Positions 1-9,440 of a stretch of DNA of 64,000 nucleotides are shown piece by piece. This DNA is from Microbacterium immunditiarum (GTDB lineage: Bacteria > Actinomycetota > Actinomycetes > Actinomycetales > Microbacteriaceae), in NCBI RefSeq assembly GCF_013409785.1, contig NZ_JACCBV010000001.1, positions 2,294,001-2,358,000 on the forward strand. The letters run 5' to 3'. Position 1 is the first letter of the stretch; every line of letters starts with the position of its first letter. The position numbers and the translations under genes were made by a program. The notes under the pieces were generated by a model. It did no database searches. It was not told where the DNA came from and was given only the letters and a program-made list of their open reading frames with translations.

Positions 1-59
1 GCCACTACTGCCCGAGGTGTCAGCGGATGCGGATGCCCCGGCCCCTGCGCGCGGCGTGA
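1..59 (+). CDS. mutM: Formamidopyrimidine-DNA glycosylase MutM, C-terminal end (partial)
   Basis: Only the last 18 codons and a TGA are inside the window. The frame reads HYCPRCQRMRMPRPLRAA, which contains the second CxxC half (CPRC followed by Q) of the C-terminal zinc finger of Fpg/MutM glycosylases. These enzymes excise oxidised purines and cut the abasic site. In actinobacteria mutM commonly lies just before smc, and smc starts about 4.1 kb downstream here, which supports the call. The gene is convergent with the GNAT genes that follow. The fragment is short, so the call rests on the zinc-finger tail plus gene order. Confidence 0.7.
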   Translation, partial: HYCPRCQRMRMPRPLRAA

Positions 60-72
60 GCCGAGACATCCG

Positions 73-1137
73 TCACACCGTCTTCTGCCAGTCGGCGATG
101 TAGCGCGTCGGCGCGAAGCCCATCGCCTCATTGATCGCGAGCATCGGGCGGTTCTCCTCGGCGTTCCCCGTCAGGATGCGCTCGCCCTCAGGGAACAGCT
201 CGCGCGCGCGGATCAGCGTCTCGCACTTCACGAGCGCGCCGAGTCGATGCCCGCGGTGCTCCTTCAGCACGAGCGTGTCGTCCTGGTCGATCGGCTTGCC
301 CGGCACGCGGAAGCTCGACAGCTCGGTGAACGCGACGAGGCGGCCCGAGGGCACGTGCTGCGCGGCGCCGACGAGCCGACTGCGACCGGATCTGGCGAAC
401 ACCTCCTCCAGGCGTCGCACGCGTCCGCCGTCCCAGGCCTCCTCGTCCATCTCCATGTCGGCGGTGGGAGCGTCGGTCGACATGCGCGACTTGAGCCACG
501 CGTAGTCGTCGAGCCACTCGTCGGGTGTCGGAGATGTCCAGCTGACGTAGCGATAGTCGCCCGATGCCTCGCGGGCACCGGCGAGCAGCGCATCGAAGCC
601 GTCGATCGGTCGTGTCAGATCGAGCGCGCTGATCCGGTACACCTGCTCGAGCGTGTAGCCGAACGAGAGCATGAAGCGCGAGAAGCGGTCCTCGGGCACC
701 GTACCGGCACCAGACCGGGGCACGAGCGACGGCTCGGCCCCGGCCGGGTGCACGGTCATCGCCTGGAGGACGCTCCGGCCGAGTTGGCGAACGCGGTCTT
801 CCGCGAACGCCATGGCCTCGGAGCCGAACCCTCGGCCCCAGGCCTCGCGTACCACCTCGACGCGGATCGTGGCGCGCCGTGAGCCCACTTCGCGAGGAAA
901 GTCCACCACGGCGCGGCCGACGACCTCGTCCTCGGCGCGGACGAGCCACCCGTGCAGCGCCATATCGGTCTGCTCGGTCCAGGTCGGCAGGACCTGCTCC
1001 GCAGTCGCATCGAGCGCGTCCGCACCGAACAGGGCGGACGACACGCGGTTGCGCACGCCCACCATCGCGCGGAAGCCCGCCGCGTTCGCGGCATCCGGCG
1101 CCTCCGGCACGATCATCGGCGTGATCGCGACCGTCAC
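73..1137 (-). CDS. Tandem-domain GNAT N-acetyltransferase, third cistron of triplet
   Basis: A 354-residue protein with two GNAT-type folds. The N-terminal half has an acyl-CoA loop like AWGRGFGS near residues 99-106. The C-terminal half has the loop EHRGHRLGALVK near 293-304, followed by NAEENRPMLAINEAMGF, a block typical of actinobacterial two-domain GNATs related in layout to mycothiol synthase. GTG at 1137 is chosen because GAGGGAG precedes it at good spacing. GTG at 1152, which overlaps the stop of the previous gene, is the alternative. The 11-base gap points to one transcript with the two upstream paralogues. The acyl acceptor cannot be read from sequence. The nearby small peptide or its product is a possible substrate, by inference only. 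Confidence 0.8.
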   Translation of the reverse strand: MTVAITPMIVPEAPDAANAAGFRAMVGVRNRVSSALFGADALDATAEQVLPTWTEQTDMALHGWLVRAEDEVVGRAVVDFPREVGSRRATIRVEVVREAWGRGFGSEAMAFAEDRVRQLGRSVLQAMTVHPAGAEPSLVPRSGAGTVPEDRFSRFMLSFGYTLEQVYRISALDLTRPIDGFDALLAGAREASGDYRYVSWTSPTPDEWLDDYAWLKSRMSTDAPTADMEMDEEAWDGGRVRRLEEVFARSGRSRLVGAAQHVPSGRLVAFTELSSFRVPGKPIDQDDTLVLKEHRGHRLGALVKCETLIRARELFPEGERILTGNAEENRPMLAINEAMGFAPTRYIADWQKTV

Positions 1138-1148
1138 CCCCGTCTCCC

Positions 1149-2243
1149 TCACGCGAGGACCTTCTTCCACGCGCCGGCGTACGAGACCGGCACGAAGCCG
1201 ATCGCCTCGTTGATGTCGAGCATGTGGCGGTTCTCCTCGGCGTTGAACGTCGACACGCGCGGGGACTCGGGCGCGATCTCGCGCCACCGCAGCAGGTTGG
1301 CGCACTTGATGATCACGCCGAGCCGGTGACCGCGGTGCTCCTTCACGACGAGCGTGCCGTACTGCTGCGTCGCCGCCGTGCGGTCCTCGCCGATGACGAG
1401 CTCGTTGTACGCGACGATCCGTCCCGTCGGCACGTGCTCGACGCACGCGACCGACACCGTGAGGCCCTGGTTCTTGAGGCGGGCGTCGCGCCGACGCACA
1501 CGGTCGGCGTCCCACCTCTCCTCTTCGATGACCAGGCCGCCCGCGGGCACGTCGGTCGACATGCGCGAGATGACGTACGCGAAGCTGTCGATGTGCTCCT
1601 CGGGAGTAGGCGACGTCCACGTCACGACGCGGTAGTCGTCACCGGCGGCGGCGAGCGCCTCGGCGAGCATCCGCTCCACCGGGTCGAACGAGCCGCGCAG
1701 ATCGAAGGCGCTGTTGCGCTCCACCTGCTCGAGCGTGTACCCGTTCTCGAGGTGGAACCGCGTCTGCGGGTCGTTCGCGGGGATCACGCCCCAGCCGGTC
1801 GACGGCTGGAGCGGCTCGCTCGGCGGCTCTGGTCGGTGGAGCGTCCACGTCTGGACCACCGTTCGACCGAGGCGCTGCGCCTCCTGCTCGATCGCGGCGA
1901 GCAGCGCCTCTTCGACGCCCTCGCCCCAGTGCTCCGGATCGACCATGAGGTCGAACTCGAGCGTCTCGGAGTCGTCGCGCTGTGCGTGCATCGCGGTGAC
2001 CGCGCCGATGATGCGAGCGTCGCGCGCGGCCGTGAAGCCCACGTGACCCCAGTCGGTCTGGTCGTGCCACGGCGCGAGCATCTCGGCCGGCTCCTGATCG
2101 AGGTAGTCGTGGCCGGTGTAGTGCCGGCACACGGCGTTTGCCAGCCGCACGGTCTCGAGGAACGGTCCCGCGTCAGGGGAGTCGAGTGTCGCGGGGGCGA
2201 CGAGCTTCGAGACGGTGAGCGGCTGCGTGGCGACGTCAGTCAT
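1149..2243 (-). CDS. Tandem-domain GNAT N-acetyltransferase, second cistron of triplet
   Basis: A 364-residue paralogue of the genes on both sides. The C-terminal acyl-CoA loop is KEHRGHRLGVIIK and the following block is NAEENRHMLDINEAIGF. The N-terminal half carries EHWGEGVEEALL in place of a canonical GRGxG loop, so that half may be structural. The ATG at 2243 overlaps the end of the upstream GNAT gene by 8 bases, which indicates translational coupling. Divergence between copies, set against the conserved C-terminal motif, suggests an old duplication with different acceptor specificities. The substrate is unknown. Confidence 0.8.
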   Translation of the reverse strand: MTDVATQPLTVSKLVAPATLDSPDAGPFLETVRLANAVCRHYTGHDYLDQEPAEMLAPWHDQTDWGHVGFTAARDARIIGAVTAMHAQRDDSETLEFDLMVDPEHWGEGVEEALLAAIEQEAQRLGRTVVQTWTLHRPEPPSEPLQPSTGWGVIPANDPQTRFHLENGYTLEQVERNSAFDLRGSFDPVERMLAEALAAAGDDYRVVTWTSPTPEEHIDSFAYVISRMSTDVPAGGLVIEEERWDADRVRRRDARLKNQGLTVSVACVEHVPTGRIVAYNELVIGEDRTAATQQYGTLVVKEHRGHRLGVIIKCANLLRWREIAPESPRVSTFNAEENRHMLDINEAIGFVPVSYAGAWKKVLA

Positions 2244-3321
2244 CGAGCACCTTCTTCCATCCGCCCTCGTATGAGACGGGCACGAAGCCGATCGCCTCGT
2301 TGATGCTGAGCATGGGGCGGTTCTCCTCAGCGTTGTAAGTGATGACGCGCGGGGAGTCGGGGGCGATGTCGCGCCATGCGACCAGGCCCGCGCACTTGAC
2401 GAGCAGTCCCAGGCGATACCCGCGGTGCTCTTTGAGCACGAGGGTGTCCTCCTGGTGGGTCACGCCCGTGCGGTCCTTGCCGATCACGAGCTCGTTGAAC
2501 GCGCACAGCTGCCCGGTCTCGATGTGCTGGGCGGCGGTCACGTGGATCAGACGCTGCGACGATGTGTACTGCTCGTCGTGCTTCGCGATGCGCGCGGCAT
2601 CCCACGTCTCCTCGGGCATCTCGAGCCCCGCCAGCGGGGCATCCGTCGACATGCGCGCCTTCATCTGCGCGTAGCCGTCGGCCCACTCGGGCGGAGTCGG
2701 TGCGAACCAGTCGACGACGCGGTAGCCGTGCGCCGCTTCGGTCGCCTCGGAGAGGAGCCTGTCGACGGTGTCGGCTGACGTGCTCAGGTCGAGCTCGCTG
2801 AACCGCTCGACCTGCTCGAGGGAGTACCCATGCGCGCGGTAGAAGCGCGCGGCGTGGTCGAGCGGCACGCTGCCGAAGCCGGTCGGCGGGTCCAGCCGCG
2901 GGCCGGGCGCCTCGGGGTGCTTCGCCCACGACTCGAGCACGGTGCGGCCGTGTTCGCGAGCCACCTGCTCGACGAACTCGTACGCGGCGGATCCGATGCC
3001 CTGGCCCCAGACCTCGCGCTGCAACTCGATGAGCCAGTACAGCGCCTTCGAGTCGCCCTCGAGCGGGACGTCGACGCCGATGCGGCCGACGACCGCGTCG
3101 TCCTTCACCACGGTCCACAGGAAGCGCAGCTCATATTCGTCGGGCTGGTAGAAGGGCAGCAGCTCGTCGGCCGTGATGTCGTTGTCGGAGCGGCCGGATA
3201 TCTGGCGGTAGACGATGTTGCGCACGCGCACCATCTCGGCGAAGGCGGTCGCCTCGGGGGCGTCCATCGACGTCGGGATGACTAAGGGCTGGAAGGCGAT
3301 TCCAGTCGGGGCGGTGATCAT
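2236..3321 (-). CDS. Tandem-domain GNAT N-acetyltransferase, first cistron of triplet
   Basis: A 361-residue member of the same triplet. The N-terminal loop EVWGQGIGSAAY resembles the GNAT motif A. The C-terminal loop is KEHRGYRLGLLVK, followed by NAEENRPMLSINEAIGF. The reading frame stays open upstream to 3612, but ATG at 3321 is preferred: it is preceded by GAGG at ordinary spacing, and the upstream part would run through a strong hairpin and antisense-like arginine-rich sequence. It lies downstream of the 86-codon gene, separated by the hairpin at 3363-3391. The fold and acyl-CoA use are firm; the substrate is not known. Confidence 0.8.
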   Translation of the reverse strand: MITAPTGIAFQPLVIPTSMDAPEATAFAEMVRVRNIVYRQISGRSDNDITADELLPFYQPDEYELRFLWTVVKDDAVVGRIGVDVPLEGDSKALYWLIELQREVWGQGIGSAAYEFVEQVAREHGRTVLESWAKHPEAPGPRLDPPTGFGSVPLDHAARFYRAHGYSLEQVERFSELDLSTSADTVDRLLSEATEAAHGYRVVDWFAPTPPEWADGYAQMKARMSTDAPLAGLEMPEETWDAARIAKHDEQYTSSQRLIHVTAAQHIETGQLCAFNELVIGKDRTGVTHQEDTLVLKEHRGYRLGLLVKCAGLVAWRDIAPDSPRVITYNAEENRPMLSINEAIGFVPVSYEGGWKKVLDD

Positions 3322-3362
3322 GATGGTCCTCGGTTGTTCGCGTCGAAGTTCAGGGGAGTGGG

Positions 3363-3391
3363 GCCGGGGCCGCCGGCGCGGCGGCCCCGGC
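3363..3391 (-). terminator. Strong intercistronic hairpin (attenuator or partial terminator)
   Basis: A 12-bp perfect inverted repeat (3363-3374 with 3380-3391) closes a 5-base loop, just after the stop of the 86-codon gene and 41 bases before the first GNAT start. No T-tract follows on the minus strand, so a full intrinsic terminator is unlikely. It could lower GNAT expression relative to the peptide end of the operon, or stabilise the short upstream mRNA. Confidence 0.6.
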
Positions 3392-3652
3392 TCACGAGCG
3401 CACGCTGAGGACAGCGTGCTTGCGCAGAGCGTCGTGCTCGCGATCGGTGCGCGCACGGCTCTGGTCGAGGAGCAGAGCACGTGCATCGGTGTCGCGTGCG
3501 GAGTGGTTGCGGCGTGCGCTGCGCAGCAGCAGCCACAGACCGACCCGCAGCTCCAGCCTGTCGAGCGGCGAGAGCCGCGCGACGTCGGGGAGCGACGTCG
3601 ACAGGAGCGCATCGGTATCGGGAGGACGAACGCGGGCGAGCGTGTCGTTCAT
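3392..3652 (-). CDS. Small basic protein of the peptide/GNAT cassette, unknown function
   Basis: An 86-residue protein with no domain I can name. A central segment, SPLDRLELRVGLWLLLRSAR, has an amphipathic or membrane-touching look, and the C-terminal half is rich in Arg and Asp. Similar short D-R-x-x-L-R-x-G-L-x-L-L patterns are, to my knowledge, seen in other small actinobacterial proteins, but I cannot assign a function. ATG at 3652 has GGAAAGAG about ten bases upstream. It sits between the 35-residue peptide and the GNAT triplet on the same strand, so a role in peptide handling, export or regulation is possible but unproven. Confidence 0.55.
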   Translation of the reverse strand: MNDTLARVRPPDTDALLSTSLPDVARLSPLDRLELRVGLWLLLRSARRNHSARDTDARALLLDQSRARTDREHDALRKHAVLSVRS

Positions 3653-3789
3653 GATCGGTTCTCTTTCCAGAGGGCCTCGGTCGAGGCAGGACGGGATGGA
3701 TTGCCCGAGAAGGGCGCGGAGGCGCGCCGATGCGCGCGAGTGGGAGAGGGGCTCGGCAGGAGGAGGGCCGCGTGGCGGTCCGCGAGCAT
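3649..3789 (-). CDS. Possible 46-residue reading frame coupled to the next gene
   Basis: A short frame starts at ATG 3789 and ends WKENRS-stop, with its TGA overlapping the ATG of the 86-codon gene (ATGA). The stop-start overlap is the only positive sign. There is no good ribosome binding site, the first half has high GC3, and the second half loses it. It could be a real leader frame or chance. Confidence 0.25.
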   Translation of the reverse strand: MLADRHAALLLPSPSPTRAHRRASAPFSGNPSRPASTEALWKENRS

Positions 3790-3844
3790 GCGGAGAGCAC
3801 GGGGCGAGGTGCCCGATGGGCAGAGTCCTCCTGCGCGGCTGGTG

Positions 3845-3952
3845 TCAGCCGGCAGCGCAGAGTGCTGCGCCGAAGGAGCCGGTCACCGGAGCAACCCCTC
3901 CGAACGGGGTGTACGTGGCCGGGGCAATGCCGGCTGCGATCATGTGCATCAT
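3845..3952 (-). CDS. 35-residue peptide, candidate modified-peptide or signal precursor
   Basis: The frame starts with MMHMIAAG and is rich in Gly, Ala, Pro and Thr, with single Tyr-14 and Cys-32 and a TPFGG segment in the middle. It ends AAG before TGA. A nearly ideal Shine-Dalgarno (AAAGGAGGT, 3957-3965) lies at good spacing from ATG 3952; ATG 3949 and 3943 are alternatives in frame. A consensus promoter lies just upstream. There is no signal peptide: the Cys is near the C-terminus with Leu at -1, so it is not a lipobox. Translation initiation this strong for so short a product, followed on the same strand by three acyltransferase genes, fits a ribosomally made peptide that is then acylated. 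That role is inference. Confidence 0.6.
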   Translation of the reverse strand: MMHMIAAGIAPATYTPFGGVAPVTGSFGAALCAAG

Positions 3953-3986
3953 CGGTGACCTCCTTTCGACTTCGACGCGAGGAGTC

Positions 3987-4016
3987 ACGTTAGCGCTGAC
4001 CTGATACGCACGTCAA
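3987..4016 (-). promoter_or_regulatory. Consensus housekeeping-type promoter of the peptide/GNAT cassette
   Basis: On the minus strand TTGACG (4011-4016) is followed after 18 bases by TAACGT (3987-3992). The predicted start, near 3980, leaves a leader of about 28 bases before the peptide ATG. This is one of the best promoter matches in the window. Confidence 0.7.
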
Positions 4017-4178
4017 GGACTTCTCCGAGATTCGTGTGAATCGGATGCTGCGGCCCCGGGCGCGTGGCGCCGCGGCGGCGGCAGGCGTGGCATCCGTCAC
4101 CCCTCGGCTCGCCTGCACGGGTGGGCGCGCGCGCTCAGGTACCTTTGAGCGGTAGTTCGACGGGGTGGAGGGGCATTC

Positions 4179-7100
4179 ATGCACCTGAAGAGCGTGACGC
4201 TCAAAGGGTTCAAGTCGTTCGCCCAGCCGACCACCTTCGCCTTCGAACCCGGCGTGACGTGCATCGTCGGACCCAACGGCTCGGGCAAGTCGAACGTCGT
4301 CGACGCGCTCGCGTGGGTCATGGGCGAGCAGGGCGCCAAGACGCTGCGCGGCGGCAAGATGGAGGACGTCATCTTCGCCGGCACCGCGACGCGTGGGCCC
4401 CTCGGCCGCGCCGAGGTGCAGCTCACGATCGACAACAGCGACGGTGCGCTGCCGATCGAGTACTCCGAGGTGACGATCAGCCGCACGCTGTTCCGCAACG
4501 GCGCGAGCGAGTACGCGATCAACGGCGAGACGTGCCGCCTGCTCGACGTGCAGGAGCTGCTGAGCGACTCCGGCCTCGGCCGCGAGATGCACGTGATCGT
4601 CGGGCAGGGCCGGCTCGACAGCGTGCTGCAGGCGACGCCCGAGGATCGGCGCGGCTTCATCGAGGAAGCCGCGGGAATCCTCAAGCACCGGCGTCGCAAG
4701 GAGAAGACCGTCCGCAAGCTCGAGGCGATGGAGGCGAACCTCACGCGCCTCAACGACCTCGCCGGCGAGCTGCGCCGACAGCTCAAGCCCCTCGGTCGGC
4801 AGGCTGAGATCGCGCGCGAGGCGGCGACGATCGCCGCGATCGTGCGCGACGCGAAGGCGCGCCTCCTCGCCGACGAGATCGTCGCGTTGCGCGACCAGCT
4901 CTCGGCCCACGCCCGATCCGAGCAGGAGCGCACCGCCGAGCGACTCGTGCTGCAGGACGAGGCCGAGAACGTGCGGGCGCGAATCGAGCGGCTCGAGCGC
5001 GAGCAGCAGTCCGAGGCGGTCGACGAGGCGCGCCGCGTGCTGCACGGGCTCGAGCGCGTGCAGGAGCGCCTGCGCGGGCTGTACACGCTCGCGGGCCAGC
5101 GCCTCGCGCTCCTGGGCGACAGCGAGCAGGACGACGTCGGCGAGCACGCCACCGTGACGCAGGCGACGATAGGCGAAGCCCGCGCCGAGGTCGACGACAT
5201 CGCCGCGGGGATGGGAGCCGCGCAGGACGGGGCGGCGGATGCGGCGCGCGAGGTCATCCGAGCGCGGGCCGAGCTCGATGCGCTCGACGCCGACATCGCC
5301 GCGCAGAGCGCCCTCGTATCGGAGCACGACATGCGCATCACCGCGCTCCGCGGGACGGCGGAGGCCGCGGCATCCGCCCTCGCCGCCGTGCGGACGGCCG
5401 TCGAGCGGCAGCAGAAGGCGCTCGATGCCGCGCTCGCCCGCCGCGTCGAAGCCGAGGAGGCGCTCGCCGGACTCGACCCCGACCTCGAGCCCGAGGGCTC
5501 GTCGGCCGAGTACGCGTCGGCGTACGAGCGCGCGCAACGCGACGCGACCGAGGCCGAGTCGCAGGTCTCGGCCCTTCGCGACCGGCTGCACGCCGCGGAG
5601 CGCGAGGTCGAGGCGCTCACGGCGCAGACGGCCGCGCTGAGTCGCGCGCTCGACGTGCAGAACGGGGCGTCCGCCCTCATCGCCGAGGGGCACGCCGGCG
5701 TACGTGGCCTCGTGGGCGACGCGGTGCAGGTCAAGTCCGGGTTCGAGGCGGCGATCGCCGCCGTGCTCGGGCCGCTCGCCGAGGGCGTGCTCGTGGAGGG
5801 GCGCGACGACGCGTTCGCGCTCGCCGAGCACGTGCGAGGCTCCGACGCCGGTGTGGTCGACATGGTGATCGCGGATGCGGGCTCCATGACGCCGTCCTTC
5901 CCGCGGATGCAGGGCGTCGTGCCGGCCGGAGAGGTCGTGACCGCCCCCGGGGGCGTGCTCGGGCTGCTGTCGTACGTCGTCATCGCGGACGACCTCGACG
6001 CCGCGCGCAAAGCCGGCCCGGCGCTCGCGGACGCCGAGCTCGGCGGCCCGATCACGGTCGTCACCCGCGCCGGCGAGGTGTACACCGAGCACTCGCTCCG
6101 CGCGGGAGCGGGCGCGTCGCGGTCGCGACTCGAGCTCTCGGCCGAGCGGGACGCCGCCGCCGAGCGCCGCGACGAGATCACGGTCGTGGCGGACTCGTTG
6201 CGCGAGGCGCTCGCGGACGCGAAGCGGGAGCTCGAGAGCGCGCGCACGCGCACGAAGACCGCGCTCGAGACGCTTCGTGCGCACGACGCGGCGCTCGCCG
6301 CGCACACCGAGCAGGTCAATCGCGCGACCGTGCGGCACGAGGCCGCGGTCGCCGAGTGCGAGCGCCTGTCGGCGGGGCTCGCACAGGCGCAGGCGGCGGT
6401 TGCGGATGCCGAGGCCTCCGCCCGAGTCGCCGACGAGCAGCTTGCATCGGCGCTCGAAGCGCCGCGCCCGATCCTCGACGCGTCGGCGCGAGAGGGTGTG
6501 CTCGCAGCGCTCGAGGCGGCGCGCGACGCCGAGATGCGCGCACGCCTCGACGTCGAGACTCTGCGCGAGCGCATCCGCGCGGGCGAGGCCCGCGTCGTGC
6601 AGCTCGAGCGGCAGCGCGAGCGGGAACGCGAGGCGGCGGCGGCCGCGGCCCGTCGCGCGGTGATCCGCCGCGCGCAGCGCGAGCTCGCGGAGCAGGTGGT
6701 GTCGCAGCTTCCCGCCGTGCTCGACTCAGTCGACCGGTCTGTCTCCGACGCGCGCGTCGAGCTTGCCACCGCGGAGTCGGCTCGCACCGCCGTCACGACC
6801 GAGCTCGCGGAGCTGCGCCGTCAGGAGGCGGGGGTGCGGGAGCGCCTCGCGCGGCTCACCGAGAGTGTCCACGGTCTCGAGCTGCAGATCCACGAGAAGC
6901 GCCTGCATGCGACGGGGCTGCTCGAGCGCGCGGAGTCCGAGCTCGGTCTCGACGAGAGTATTCTCGTTTCGGAATACGGTCCCGATCAGCCTGTTCCCGT
7001 CGACGACGTGCAGAGCGCGGACGCGGCGGCGGACGATCCGGATGCGGCATCCGACGCCCCGCCGGCGACCGAGCCCTACGATCGCGCGCGTCAGACACGC

Positions 7101-7978: not shown

Positions 7979-8851
7979 ATGGCGGAGAACCCCTGGTCGC
8001 TCGGCCGCGCCCTGCGCGGCATGTTCGTGAAACCGACGATCGACGAGACGACCTGGGACGACCTCGAAGCCGCGCTGATCACGGCGGACTTCGGCCCCGA
8101 CATCACCGAGCGCATCGTCGAGGAGCTCCGCGAGAAGGTCGACCGTTTCCGCACGACCGATCCGCGCGACCTCAAGCGGATGCTCGTCGAGACACTCGAG
8201 GAGCACTTCGCGAAGTTCGACAGGACGCTCAAGCTCACCGAGCGCCCCGCGGTCGTGCTCGTCGTGGGGGTCAACGGCGTCGGCAAGACGACGACGATCG
8301 GCAAGTTCGCGAAGTTCCTGCAGCGCTACGGGCGGTCGGTCGTCGTGGGCGCGGCCGACACGTTCCGGGCCGCCGCCGTCGATCAGCTCGCCACGTGGGC
8401 GGAGCGAGGCGGTGCCGCGATCGTCCGCCCTCAGCAAGAGGGTCAGGACCCGGCATCCGTCGCGTACCAGACGATCGAGTATGCCAACCGCACCGGAACC
8501 GAGATCGTGCTCGTCGACACCGCCGGCCGCCTGCACACCAAGGGCGGGCTCATGGACGAGCTCAGCAAGATCCGTCGAGTGATCGAGAAGCAGGCGCCGA
8601 TCAGCGAGGTGCTCCTCGTGCTCGACGCGACGACCGGCCAGAACGGCGTCATGCAGGCGCAGGCGTTCCTCGAGCACGCGGGGGTCACGGGCCTTGTGAT
8701 CACGAAGCTCGACGGCTCGGCCAAGGGCGGCTTCGTGCTGGCGGTGCAGGAGCGCACGGGAATCCCCGTGAAGCTGCTCGGACAGGGCGAGGGCATCGGC
8801 GATCTGACCGGCTTCACGCCCCACGTCTTCGCCGCATCGCTCGTCGAATGA
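7979..8851 (+). CDS. ftsY: Signal recognition particle receptor FtsY
   Basis: A 290-residue SRP GTPase made almost entirely of the NG domain; the acidic A domain of longer FtsY proteins is absent, as in many Gram-positives. G1 is GVNGVGKTTT near residue 97, DTAGR lies near 180 and TKLDG near 241. FtsY docks Ffh-ribosome complexes at the membrane. Its partner ffh is in the window at 13912. GGAGG sits only one base before the ATG, too close to work as a ribosome binding site, and TAGGCT (7967-7972) ends six bases before it, so a leaderless transcript is likely. Confidence 0.96.
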   Translation: MAENPWSLGRALRGMFVKPTIDETTWDDLEAALITADFGPDITERIVEELREKVDRFRTTDPRDLKRMLVETLEEHFAKFDRTLKLTERPAVVLVVGVNGVGKTTTIGKFAKFLQRYGRSVVVGAADTFRAAAVDQLATWAERGGAAIVRPQQEGQDPASVAYQTIEYANRTGTEIVLVDTAGRLHTKGGLMDELSKIRRVIEKQAPISEVLLVLDATTGQNGVMQAQAFLEHAGVTGLVITKLDGSAKGGFVLAVQERTGIPVKLLGQGEGIGDLTGFTPHVFAASLVE

Positions 8852-8939
8852 CGGCCTCGGGCAGCCCGATCCCGACCGGGTCTGCGCACACGCCATGCTC
8901 GGACTATCGCACCGGGCGAGAGGCTGGTTTCATGGGGAT

Positions 8940-9440
8940 ATGGCGATCGAGCACGACTTCTTCGGCCTCCTCGAGTCCGGGCCGGACGGGTCGATCTTCT
9001 GGTCCGAGAACGTCGAACTCGGCGACCAGACCGTCACGGTCGACCTGACCGCGCCCGACCAGGACGACGTATCCGAGACGGCGCTGGACGTGGCCGCGGC
9101 GCTCATCTCGTCGCTCGAGACGATCGATCGCAGCGCGCGCAACGCGATGGTCAATGAGCTCGACGACCGCACGAGCGAGGTGACCGAGTACATCCTCCAG
9201 CAGCAGGAGACGCTCGGCGACGACCTGCACGACATGCTGGTCGACATCTCCGGAGACACGCACATCGACGTCATCCGGTCGCTGCAGCTCATGAGCATGA
9301 CGATCCTCGCCGACGAGCACGGCGGCGCCGAGCCGTTCGCGGTGCTCGAGTACGCACTCGACCCCGATGCCACAGATGACGTGCTCCTGGTCAACCTCGA
9401 CTCCGGCGGCGACGTCCTCACGGTGACGAGCGCCGACTAG
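8940..9440 (+). CDS. DUF2004-type protein of unknown function
   Basis: A 166-residue acidic protein beginning MAIEHDFFGLLES. It reads as a soluble alpha/beta protein without signal peptide or membrane segment. The opening, a compact domain around a WSENVELGD strand and a C-terminal part ending in short hydrophobic strands, resembles DUF2004 proteins seen in Microbacterium and relatives. ATG at 8940 is preferred; the frame extends to 8895 but that extension does not look coding. It ends 21 bases before the convergent lipA. Biological role unknown. Confidence 0.6.
   Translation: MAIEHDFFGLLESGPDGSIFWSENVELGDQTVTVDLTAPDQDDVSETALDVAAALISSLETIDRSARNAMVNELDDRTSEVTEYILQQQETLGDDLHDMLVDISGDTHIDVIRSLQLMSMTILADEHGGAEPFAVLEYALDPDATDDVLLVNLDSGGDVLTVTSAD

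Follow-up and report, generated by a model that had tools for sequence, protein, structure and literature searches.

Between mutM and smc, the window analysed here (the whole 64,000-nucleotide stretch of Microbacterium immunditiarum DNA) carries a minus-strand unit made up of a promoter, a 35-codon open reading frame (ORF), a gene for an 86-residue basic protein (p86), a GC hairpin, and three genes for GNAT acetyltransferases (A, B, and C). We find that the conserved signal in the short ORF is an RNA stem between its ribosome-binding site (RBS) and its own codons, not the peptide. Our analysis indicates that the frame is likely a regulatory upstream ORF (uORF), namely a translation-sensing and probably Rho-dependent attenuator of p86 and, in Microbacterium, also of the GNATs.

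A stem between the ribosome-binding site and its own codons

A search of 88 relatives from the same genus returned GNAT A relatives in 87, two of them weakly matched (G026 and G079). Loci could be usefully fetched from 81 genomes (G016, G020, G026, G044, G046, G055, and G079 were left out), and since one locus (L035) ends before smc, 80 relatives plus the genome of the window make up the 81 genus loci described below. A short ORF lies beside the GNATs in all of them, 80 being found by a rule on Shine-Dalgarno sequence and start codon and one (L089) by eye. It carries a strong Shine-Dalgarno sequence, near-perfect in the window, and is 29 to 43 codons long in 81/81 loci, a length found in 10.3% of 19,952 ATG frames from the same loci. 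The promoter is kept as well, with TTGAC at most 130 bases upstream in 81/81 loci and a matching -10 in 76/81. The parts of the leader in the window are as follows:

4011–4016 (-35, TTGACG) and 3987–3992 (-10, TAACGT), minus strand: promoter with an 18-base spacer, from sequence
3953–3967, minus strand: leader RBS, whose Shine-Dalgarno sequence GAAAGGAGG (3959–3967) runs into stem strand 1
3953–3960, minus strand: stem strand 1, GGUCACCG, from covariation, and paired in the fold predicted for the window RNA
3845–3952, minus strand: leader uORF of 35 codons (MMHMIAAGIAPATYTPFGGVAPVTGSFGAALCAAG), with an equivalent ORF in every genus locus
3881–3888 (element 3870–3888), minus strand: anti-RBS CGGUGACC inside the uORF, pairing with 3953–3960
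3870–3878, minus strand: CUCCUUCGG, a possible extension of the stem covering the Shine-Dalgarno sequence, from pairing analysis
3811–3821, minus strand: small hairpin past the uORF stop, GCCC-loop-GGGC, from an alignment of 28 loci
3653–3810, minus strand: C-rich, G-poor leader stretch, a candidate Rho-utilisation region, from base composition

The RBS of the uORF is complementary to codons ~14 to 25 of the same ORF, with two exceptions (L112 and L113, codon 7). In 80 loci (L089, whose Shine-Dalgarno sequence had missed the search pattern and which was added by eye later, was omitted), the RBS:anti-RBS duplex has a mean energy of -24.6 kcal/mol and a mean z of -2.67 vs. shuffled ORFs, with 63/80 below p 0.05, and at the median a locus's own pairing beats 87% of swaps. 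When pairs were counted in an alignment (A1) of 41 of the 81 sequences, picked for diversity, the core helix was paired in 90.8% of cells, compared to 79.1% in shuffles and 28 to 55% in slid registers. Both sides change in seven of its eight pairs, the covariation score is 0.385 vs. 0.181, and on five measures the observed value was reached by none of 500 shuffles and by no slid register. Examples of compensatory change include GGTCACC/GGTGACC, GATCGCA/TGCGATC, GGACACC/GGTGTCC, GGAAGCC/GGCTTCC, and GGAGGCCGC/GCGGCCTCC. When the outer extension that covers the Shine-Dalgarno sequence is included, 78.6% of cells are paired, above every shuffle and slid register; shuffles reach the observed value on two other measures (2/500 and 29/500), and fewer than half of the sequences form the outermost pairs. 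The core helix is also present in the fold predicted for the window leader.

By sequence comparison, the clades do not share a conserved uORF peptide. The median identity of the window peptide to the other 80 is 0.30 (range 0.17–0.57), vs. 0.27 to shuffled peptides (a control made with 40 of the 81), and peptide length ranges from 16 to 43 residues across all loci. Lysine occurs in just 10/81 genus peptides and is absent from that of the window. The residues SFG, which are common in the nearest clade, are the codon face of the anti-Shine-Dalgarno strand given above (3870–3878). A gap-length test modulo 3 (259/663 uORF gaps were a multiple of three vs. 276/1857 in the untranslated region) was discarded as biased and left unused, because, by construction, the starts and stops of both ORFs are in frame. 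A T-G-[IVFL] motif at uORF codons ~6 to 12 recurs in otherwise unlike uORFs of several clades, in Microbacterium and in other genera, and possibly represents an RNA element within the stem loop.

Past the uORF stop, the small hairpin is conserved in the nearest clade, where it is preceded by GGAnnACUCyG (28-locus alignment). The RNA 40 to 200 bases past the stop is rich in C (mean C 0.447, mean G 0.253). Over 160 bases starting 40 past the stop, C minus G reaches 0.15 or more in 73/81 genus loci, compared to 1.6% of 12,546 intervals from the same loci. The genome has a Rho gene. A search of window positions 1 to 4400 against Rfam returned nothing but one chance match (mir-1909, E 0.78).

p86 and the acetyltransferase genes

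Behind the leader, the unit continues with the following features:

3392–3652, minus strand: p86, small basic protein, from sequence and motif
3363–3391, minus strand: 13-bp GC hairpin between p86 and GNAT A, without a U-tract, from sequence
2236–3321, minus strand: GNAT A, tandem two-domain acetyltransferase of 361 residues
1149–2243, minus strand: GNAT B, two-domain acetyltransferase of 364 residues (2wpw, E 2e-14)
73–1152, minus strand: GNAT C, two-domain acetyltransferase (2wpw, E 7e-18)

The p86 protein has an isoelectric point of 11.2 and a core LxDRLxLRxGLxLLxR, and it fits no Pfam or NCBIfam family. It was recognised by motif in 71/81 genus loci, there downstream of the uORF, from which it is typically separated by ~130 to 250 bases of C-rich RNA. 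We considered DUF1127 (PF06568) and rejected it, as neither Pfam nor NCBIfam gave a match and hhalign returned a probability of 0.1 against a nine-sequence DUF1127 profile; the source name "DUF1127" on one protein (P0080) was not borne out.

The gap separating p86 from the first GNAT exceeds 25 bases in 51 loci, 41 of which contain a GC stem of 8 bp or more there, a count made without a shuffled control; this stem may be a partial terminator, or else a stabiliser, that fixes the ratio of p86 to GNAT. The long stem at 3363–3391 and its equivalents vary in sequence between loci. No TTGAC was found between p86 and GNAT in any of the 66 loci with a positive gap, and a shared transcript is therefore likely.

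GNAT B and GNAT C are each 46% identical to GNAT A. The best PDB sequence match for all three is ORF14 (2wpw/2wpx), at ~22–23% identity, which also ranks first among structure matches to the GNAT A model. Like the GNATs described here, ORF14, the tandem GNAT of the clavulanic acid cluster, has two GNAT domains per chain; unlike it, they lie outside any such cluster. We regard them as ORF14-like enzymes that presumably use acetyl-CoA. Mycothiol synthase MshD was rejected, since NCBIfam TIGR03448 gives GNAT B 13.3 bits against a cut-off of 163.1 and leaves A and C unmatched at E ≤1. A scan of a genome collection with GNAT A returned a sole distant relative, at 8001–9041 of a Thermomicrobiales metagenome contig (L033; 41% identity), well away from the actinobacteria. 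Upstream of six GNATs elsewhere (L033 and L117–L121), no uORF-like ORF was found by a pattern search that did not include a pairing test.

The end of mutM lies at the left edge of the window, and smc begins at 4179 on the plus strand. Judging by the names of its homologues, the window belongs to Microbacterium. Genome sequence beyond the window gives the order rnc-mutM-GNAT C-GNAT B-GNAT A-p86-ORF-smc, and across the 81 genus loci smc is followed by a unit with one to three GNATs, mostly with mutM beyond. Within the window, only p86 and the GNATs lie between the ORF and mutM, with no further maturation, protease, or export gene between smc and mutM. A sequence-only reading of the window had described the promoter, the 35-codon ORF, the basic protein, the hairpin, and three two-domain GNATs, all of which we confirmed. 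Its 11-base gap between GNAT genes is obtained when GNAT C starts at GTG 1137, which makes the protein shorter than the 359 residues encoded from GTG 1152. A further 46-codon "possible leader frame" before p86 did not hold up: it is not conserved. A TGA overlaps the start of p86 in 58 loci, and in 33 of these the frame concerned lacks a start codon.

Distribution in other genera

Outside Microbacterium, the GNATs occur without the uORF and p86, and the uORF and p86 occur without the GNATs. We found a GNAT match in 63 of 120 genomes drawn from the family (a set that includes the genome of the window and one other of its genus). In 31 of the 40 other-genus GNAT loci that were fetched, smc lies on the divergent side of the GNAT, at a distance of ~70–256 bases in 27/31 vs. 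~485–1450 in Microbacterium. None of these 31 loci contained the short ORF (pattern search) or p86 (protein search), so the GNAT at this site seems to predate the genus, and from these sequences the leader ORF and p86 look like an addition at the smc-mutM site in Microbacterium. A recurrent TAGxCTGGTCGGCTGCCC-like element (a -10, then GGTCGGCTGCC) lies ahead of the GNAT on the smc side at many loci from other genera (L157–L194).

Genes resembling p86 were present in 50 of the 120 family genomes at E ≤0.01 (two of them of the window's own genus, and some matches weak) and in 14 of 198 genomes of the order at E ≤1e-4, three of these, all weak, being outside the family. Forty other-genus p86 stretches were examined, two of which (L283 and L284) come from another family, leaving 38; no match to GNAT A, B, or C was found at E ≤1e-5 in any of the 40. 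Among the first 20 stretches, 18 have a short ORF of 16–29 codons with a Shine-Dalgarno sequence and self-pairing, ~220–410 bases upstream, and 16 of 18 further family stretches have a candidate uORF, one of which is ambiguous and two weak. Pairing statistics were computed on 30 of the 38 family stretches, after dropping four in which no ORF was found (L238, L240, L266, and L285, the last with a match unlike p86), a near copy of L234 (L235), the ambiguous case (L275), and the two weak ones (L276 and L280). The corresponding alignment (A6) was not pair-counted because of register slips at the RBS. Both coaD and recG, which in the genome of the window are a few kilobases away from smc, were present in 6/40 of the p86 stretches.

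An RNA model built from Microbacterium gave nine other-genus matches at E ≤0.001, four of which are directly upstream of p86. In the genome of the window, a second match to the model (E 6e-4) coincides with the beginning of an ordinary protein gene that has a strong Shine-Dalgarno sequence, and was judged to be chance; six weaker matches there have E values of 0.01–0.94, with L198 and L201 among them inside long frames.

These distributions bear on three points of the sequence-only reading. The insertion of the unit between mutM and smc was not confirmed as such: a GNAT beside smc is common in the family, and what this genus has in addition is the short ORF and p86 alone. The short frame is, as proposed, a real and conserved companion of the GNATs in the genus; a lack of conservation of the frame beside GNATs in relatives, named there as counter-evidence, was not seen, because the frame is present in 81/81 loci. 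A search for co-occurrence of the peptide ORF, p86, and GNATs finds them together in Microbacterium and separable in other genera.

Proposed mechanism, alternatives, and known systems

A precedent for such a leader is the Sinorhizobium meliloti small-protein gene duf1127_1 (PMC12218461). The gene is preceded by a uORF whose RBS pairs with C-rich uORF codons, termination occurs after a stretch with more C than G downstream of the uORF, tetracycline relieves it, and the authors propose that the uORF monitors ribosome availability. The same parts are found in Microbacteriaceae, which belong to another phylum, and control of the same kind is the simplest interpretation.

The RBS of the uORF would be transcribed first, and the complementary segment ~60–75 bases later would fold back and bury the site; the state of the leader would be set by the timely loading and free running of a ribosome. 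Under healthy translation, the uORF would be read, the C-rich RNA past its stop would be exposed to Rho, and transcription would mostly end before p86. If initiation or early elongation faltered (because of a ribosome-targeting drug or a shortage of ribosomes or charged tRNA), a stalled ribosome or the closed stem may block termination, and, by analogy with duf1127_1, p86 would be made and so, solely in Microbacterium, would the GNATs downstream. Output of the GNATs relative to p86 may be reduced by the hairpin that follows p86. GNATs that acetylate a drug or a component of the translation machinery would be candidates that fit such a response.

A number of points weigh against an attenuator of this kind. 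C-richness by itself is no proof of a rut site, and the proposed control of the GNATs by the leader derives solely from gene order. The slid-register control favours the stem because the stem was found on the sequences on which it was counted. With the outer extension included, pair types exceed shuffles less clearly (the 29/500 given above), and the window leader has just a modest folding advantage over shuffles (z -1.68, with 13/200 equally good). Pairing statistics are weaker in other genera (14/30 below p 0.05, mean z -1.75, beating 62% of swaps at the median), where the segments vary little; the ORF pattern applied to these genera was also looser and without a matched control. Five other-genus matches to the RNA model (L218, L219, L220, L221, and L224) are not upstream of a recognised p86, and may be chance or other genes under a like leader. 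The pairing involves codons 3–10 in duf1127_1, vs. ~14–25 here. Finally, the coding signal within clades is weak: the ratio of nonsynonymous to synonymous change (pN/pS) is 0.70 in the uORF (35 pairs), compared to 1.17 and 0.81 in the wrong frames, and by part of the uORF it is 0.60 and 0.64 in codons 2–24 vs. 0.91 beyond.

Stalling on the uORF could instead free the RBS of p86 or of a GNAT, as in erm- or toiL-type translational attenuators, rather than block Rho termination. A uORF with alternative pairing would suit this, and toiL provides a precedent in E. coli (PMC12121999); however, no pairing between the uORF and the p86 start was noticed in our alignments, which were not formally tested for it, and the long C-rich spacer between the two argues against it. 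We consider translational attenuation unlikely, although the two mechanisms are not mutually exclusive. There is little to recommend a translated small protein whose product matters and whose synthesis is autoregulated, such as a type I toxin-like peptide whose Shine-Dalgarno sequence is hidden by pairing. The strong Shine-Dalgarno sequence is indeed buried by the conserved stem, and codons 2–24 are under weak purifying selection, but no peptide sequence is conserved across clades, the length varies more than twofold (16–43 residues), and p86 follows in all of the 71 loci in which it was recognised. We give almost no weight to the peptide/acyltransferase pathway of the sequence-only reading, in which the 35-residue peptide is a natural-product precursor acylated or acetylated by the GNATs in the manner of goadsporin or selidamides, since, although the ORF adjoins the GNATs in every genus locus, the peptide differs between clades with an identity near that of shuffled peptides and seldom contains lysine, other genera have smc-side GNATs without the ORF and p86 stretches, most with the ORF, without such a GNAT, the window offers no further maturation genes, and RNA pairing accounts for the conserved part.

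If the Rho-dependent attenuator is correct, an apparent orphan peptide gene becomes a family-wide translation sensor in actinobacteria, an undescribed small protein and acetyltransferase set would be tied to translation stress, and covariation evidence would be added for a mechanism that, within the literature consulted, was worked out on one alphaproteobacterial gene (PMC12218461). It would also caution that a short ORF adjoining a modifying enzyme is not necessarily a natural-product precursor. In the open PMC literature, we recognised no description of this element and none pairing Microbacterium with a uORF. As a tentative and rather doubtful extension, a ribosome-availability timer, in which an RBS folds onto its own uORF, may have evolved, or been retained, as a driver of small basic proteins in two phyla. 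Its target in Microbacteriaceae would be p86, a novel effector of translation stress, and in Microbacterium the timer would have captured tandem GNATs whose substrates are either compounds that target the ribosome or the translation machinery itself.

The WhiB7 leader carries an actinobacterial uORF ahead of a stress gene. We rejected the WhiB7 system here: the genome of the window has only two WhiB-family genes, no AT-hook of the WhiB7 kind was seen in either, and the gene downstream of the uORF is not whiB7. The toiL uORF of topAI-yjhQP in E. coli likewise senses translation stress, caused by several ribosome-targeting drugs, with involvement of Rho (PMC12121999). In comparison with duf1127_1, S. 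meliloti is an alphaproteobacterium in which the downstream protein is a DUF1127 protein, to which p86 has no detectable relation, and GNATs are not part of the system; duf1127_1 is one experimentally studied gene, whereas the Microbacteriaceae element is conserved across a family. The two leaders share a uORF RBS that pairs with the uORF's own codons, with RNA rather than peptide sequence being what matters, and an element with more C than G past the uORF stop (here from composition alone), and the small arginine-rich family of the protein downstream in S. meliloti counts as a likeness to p86.

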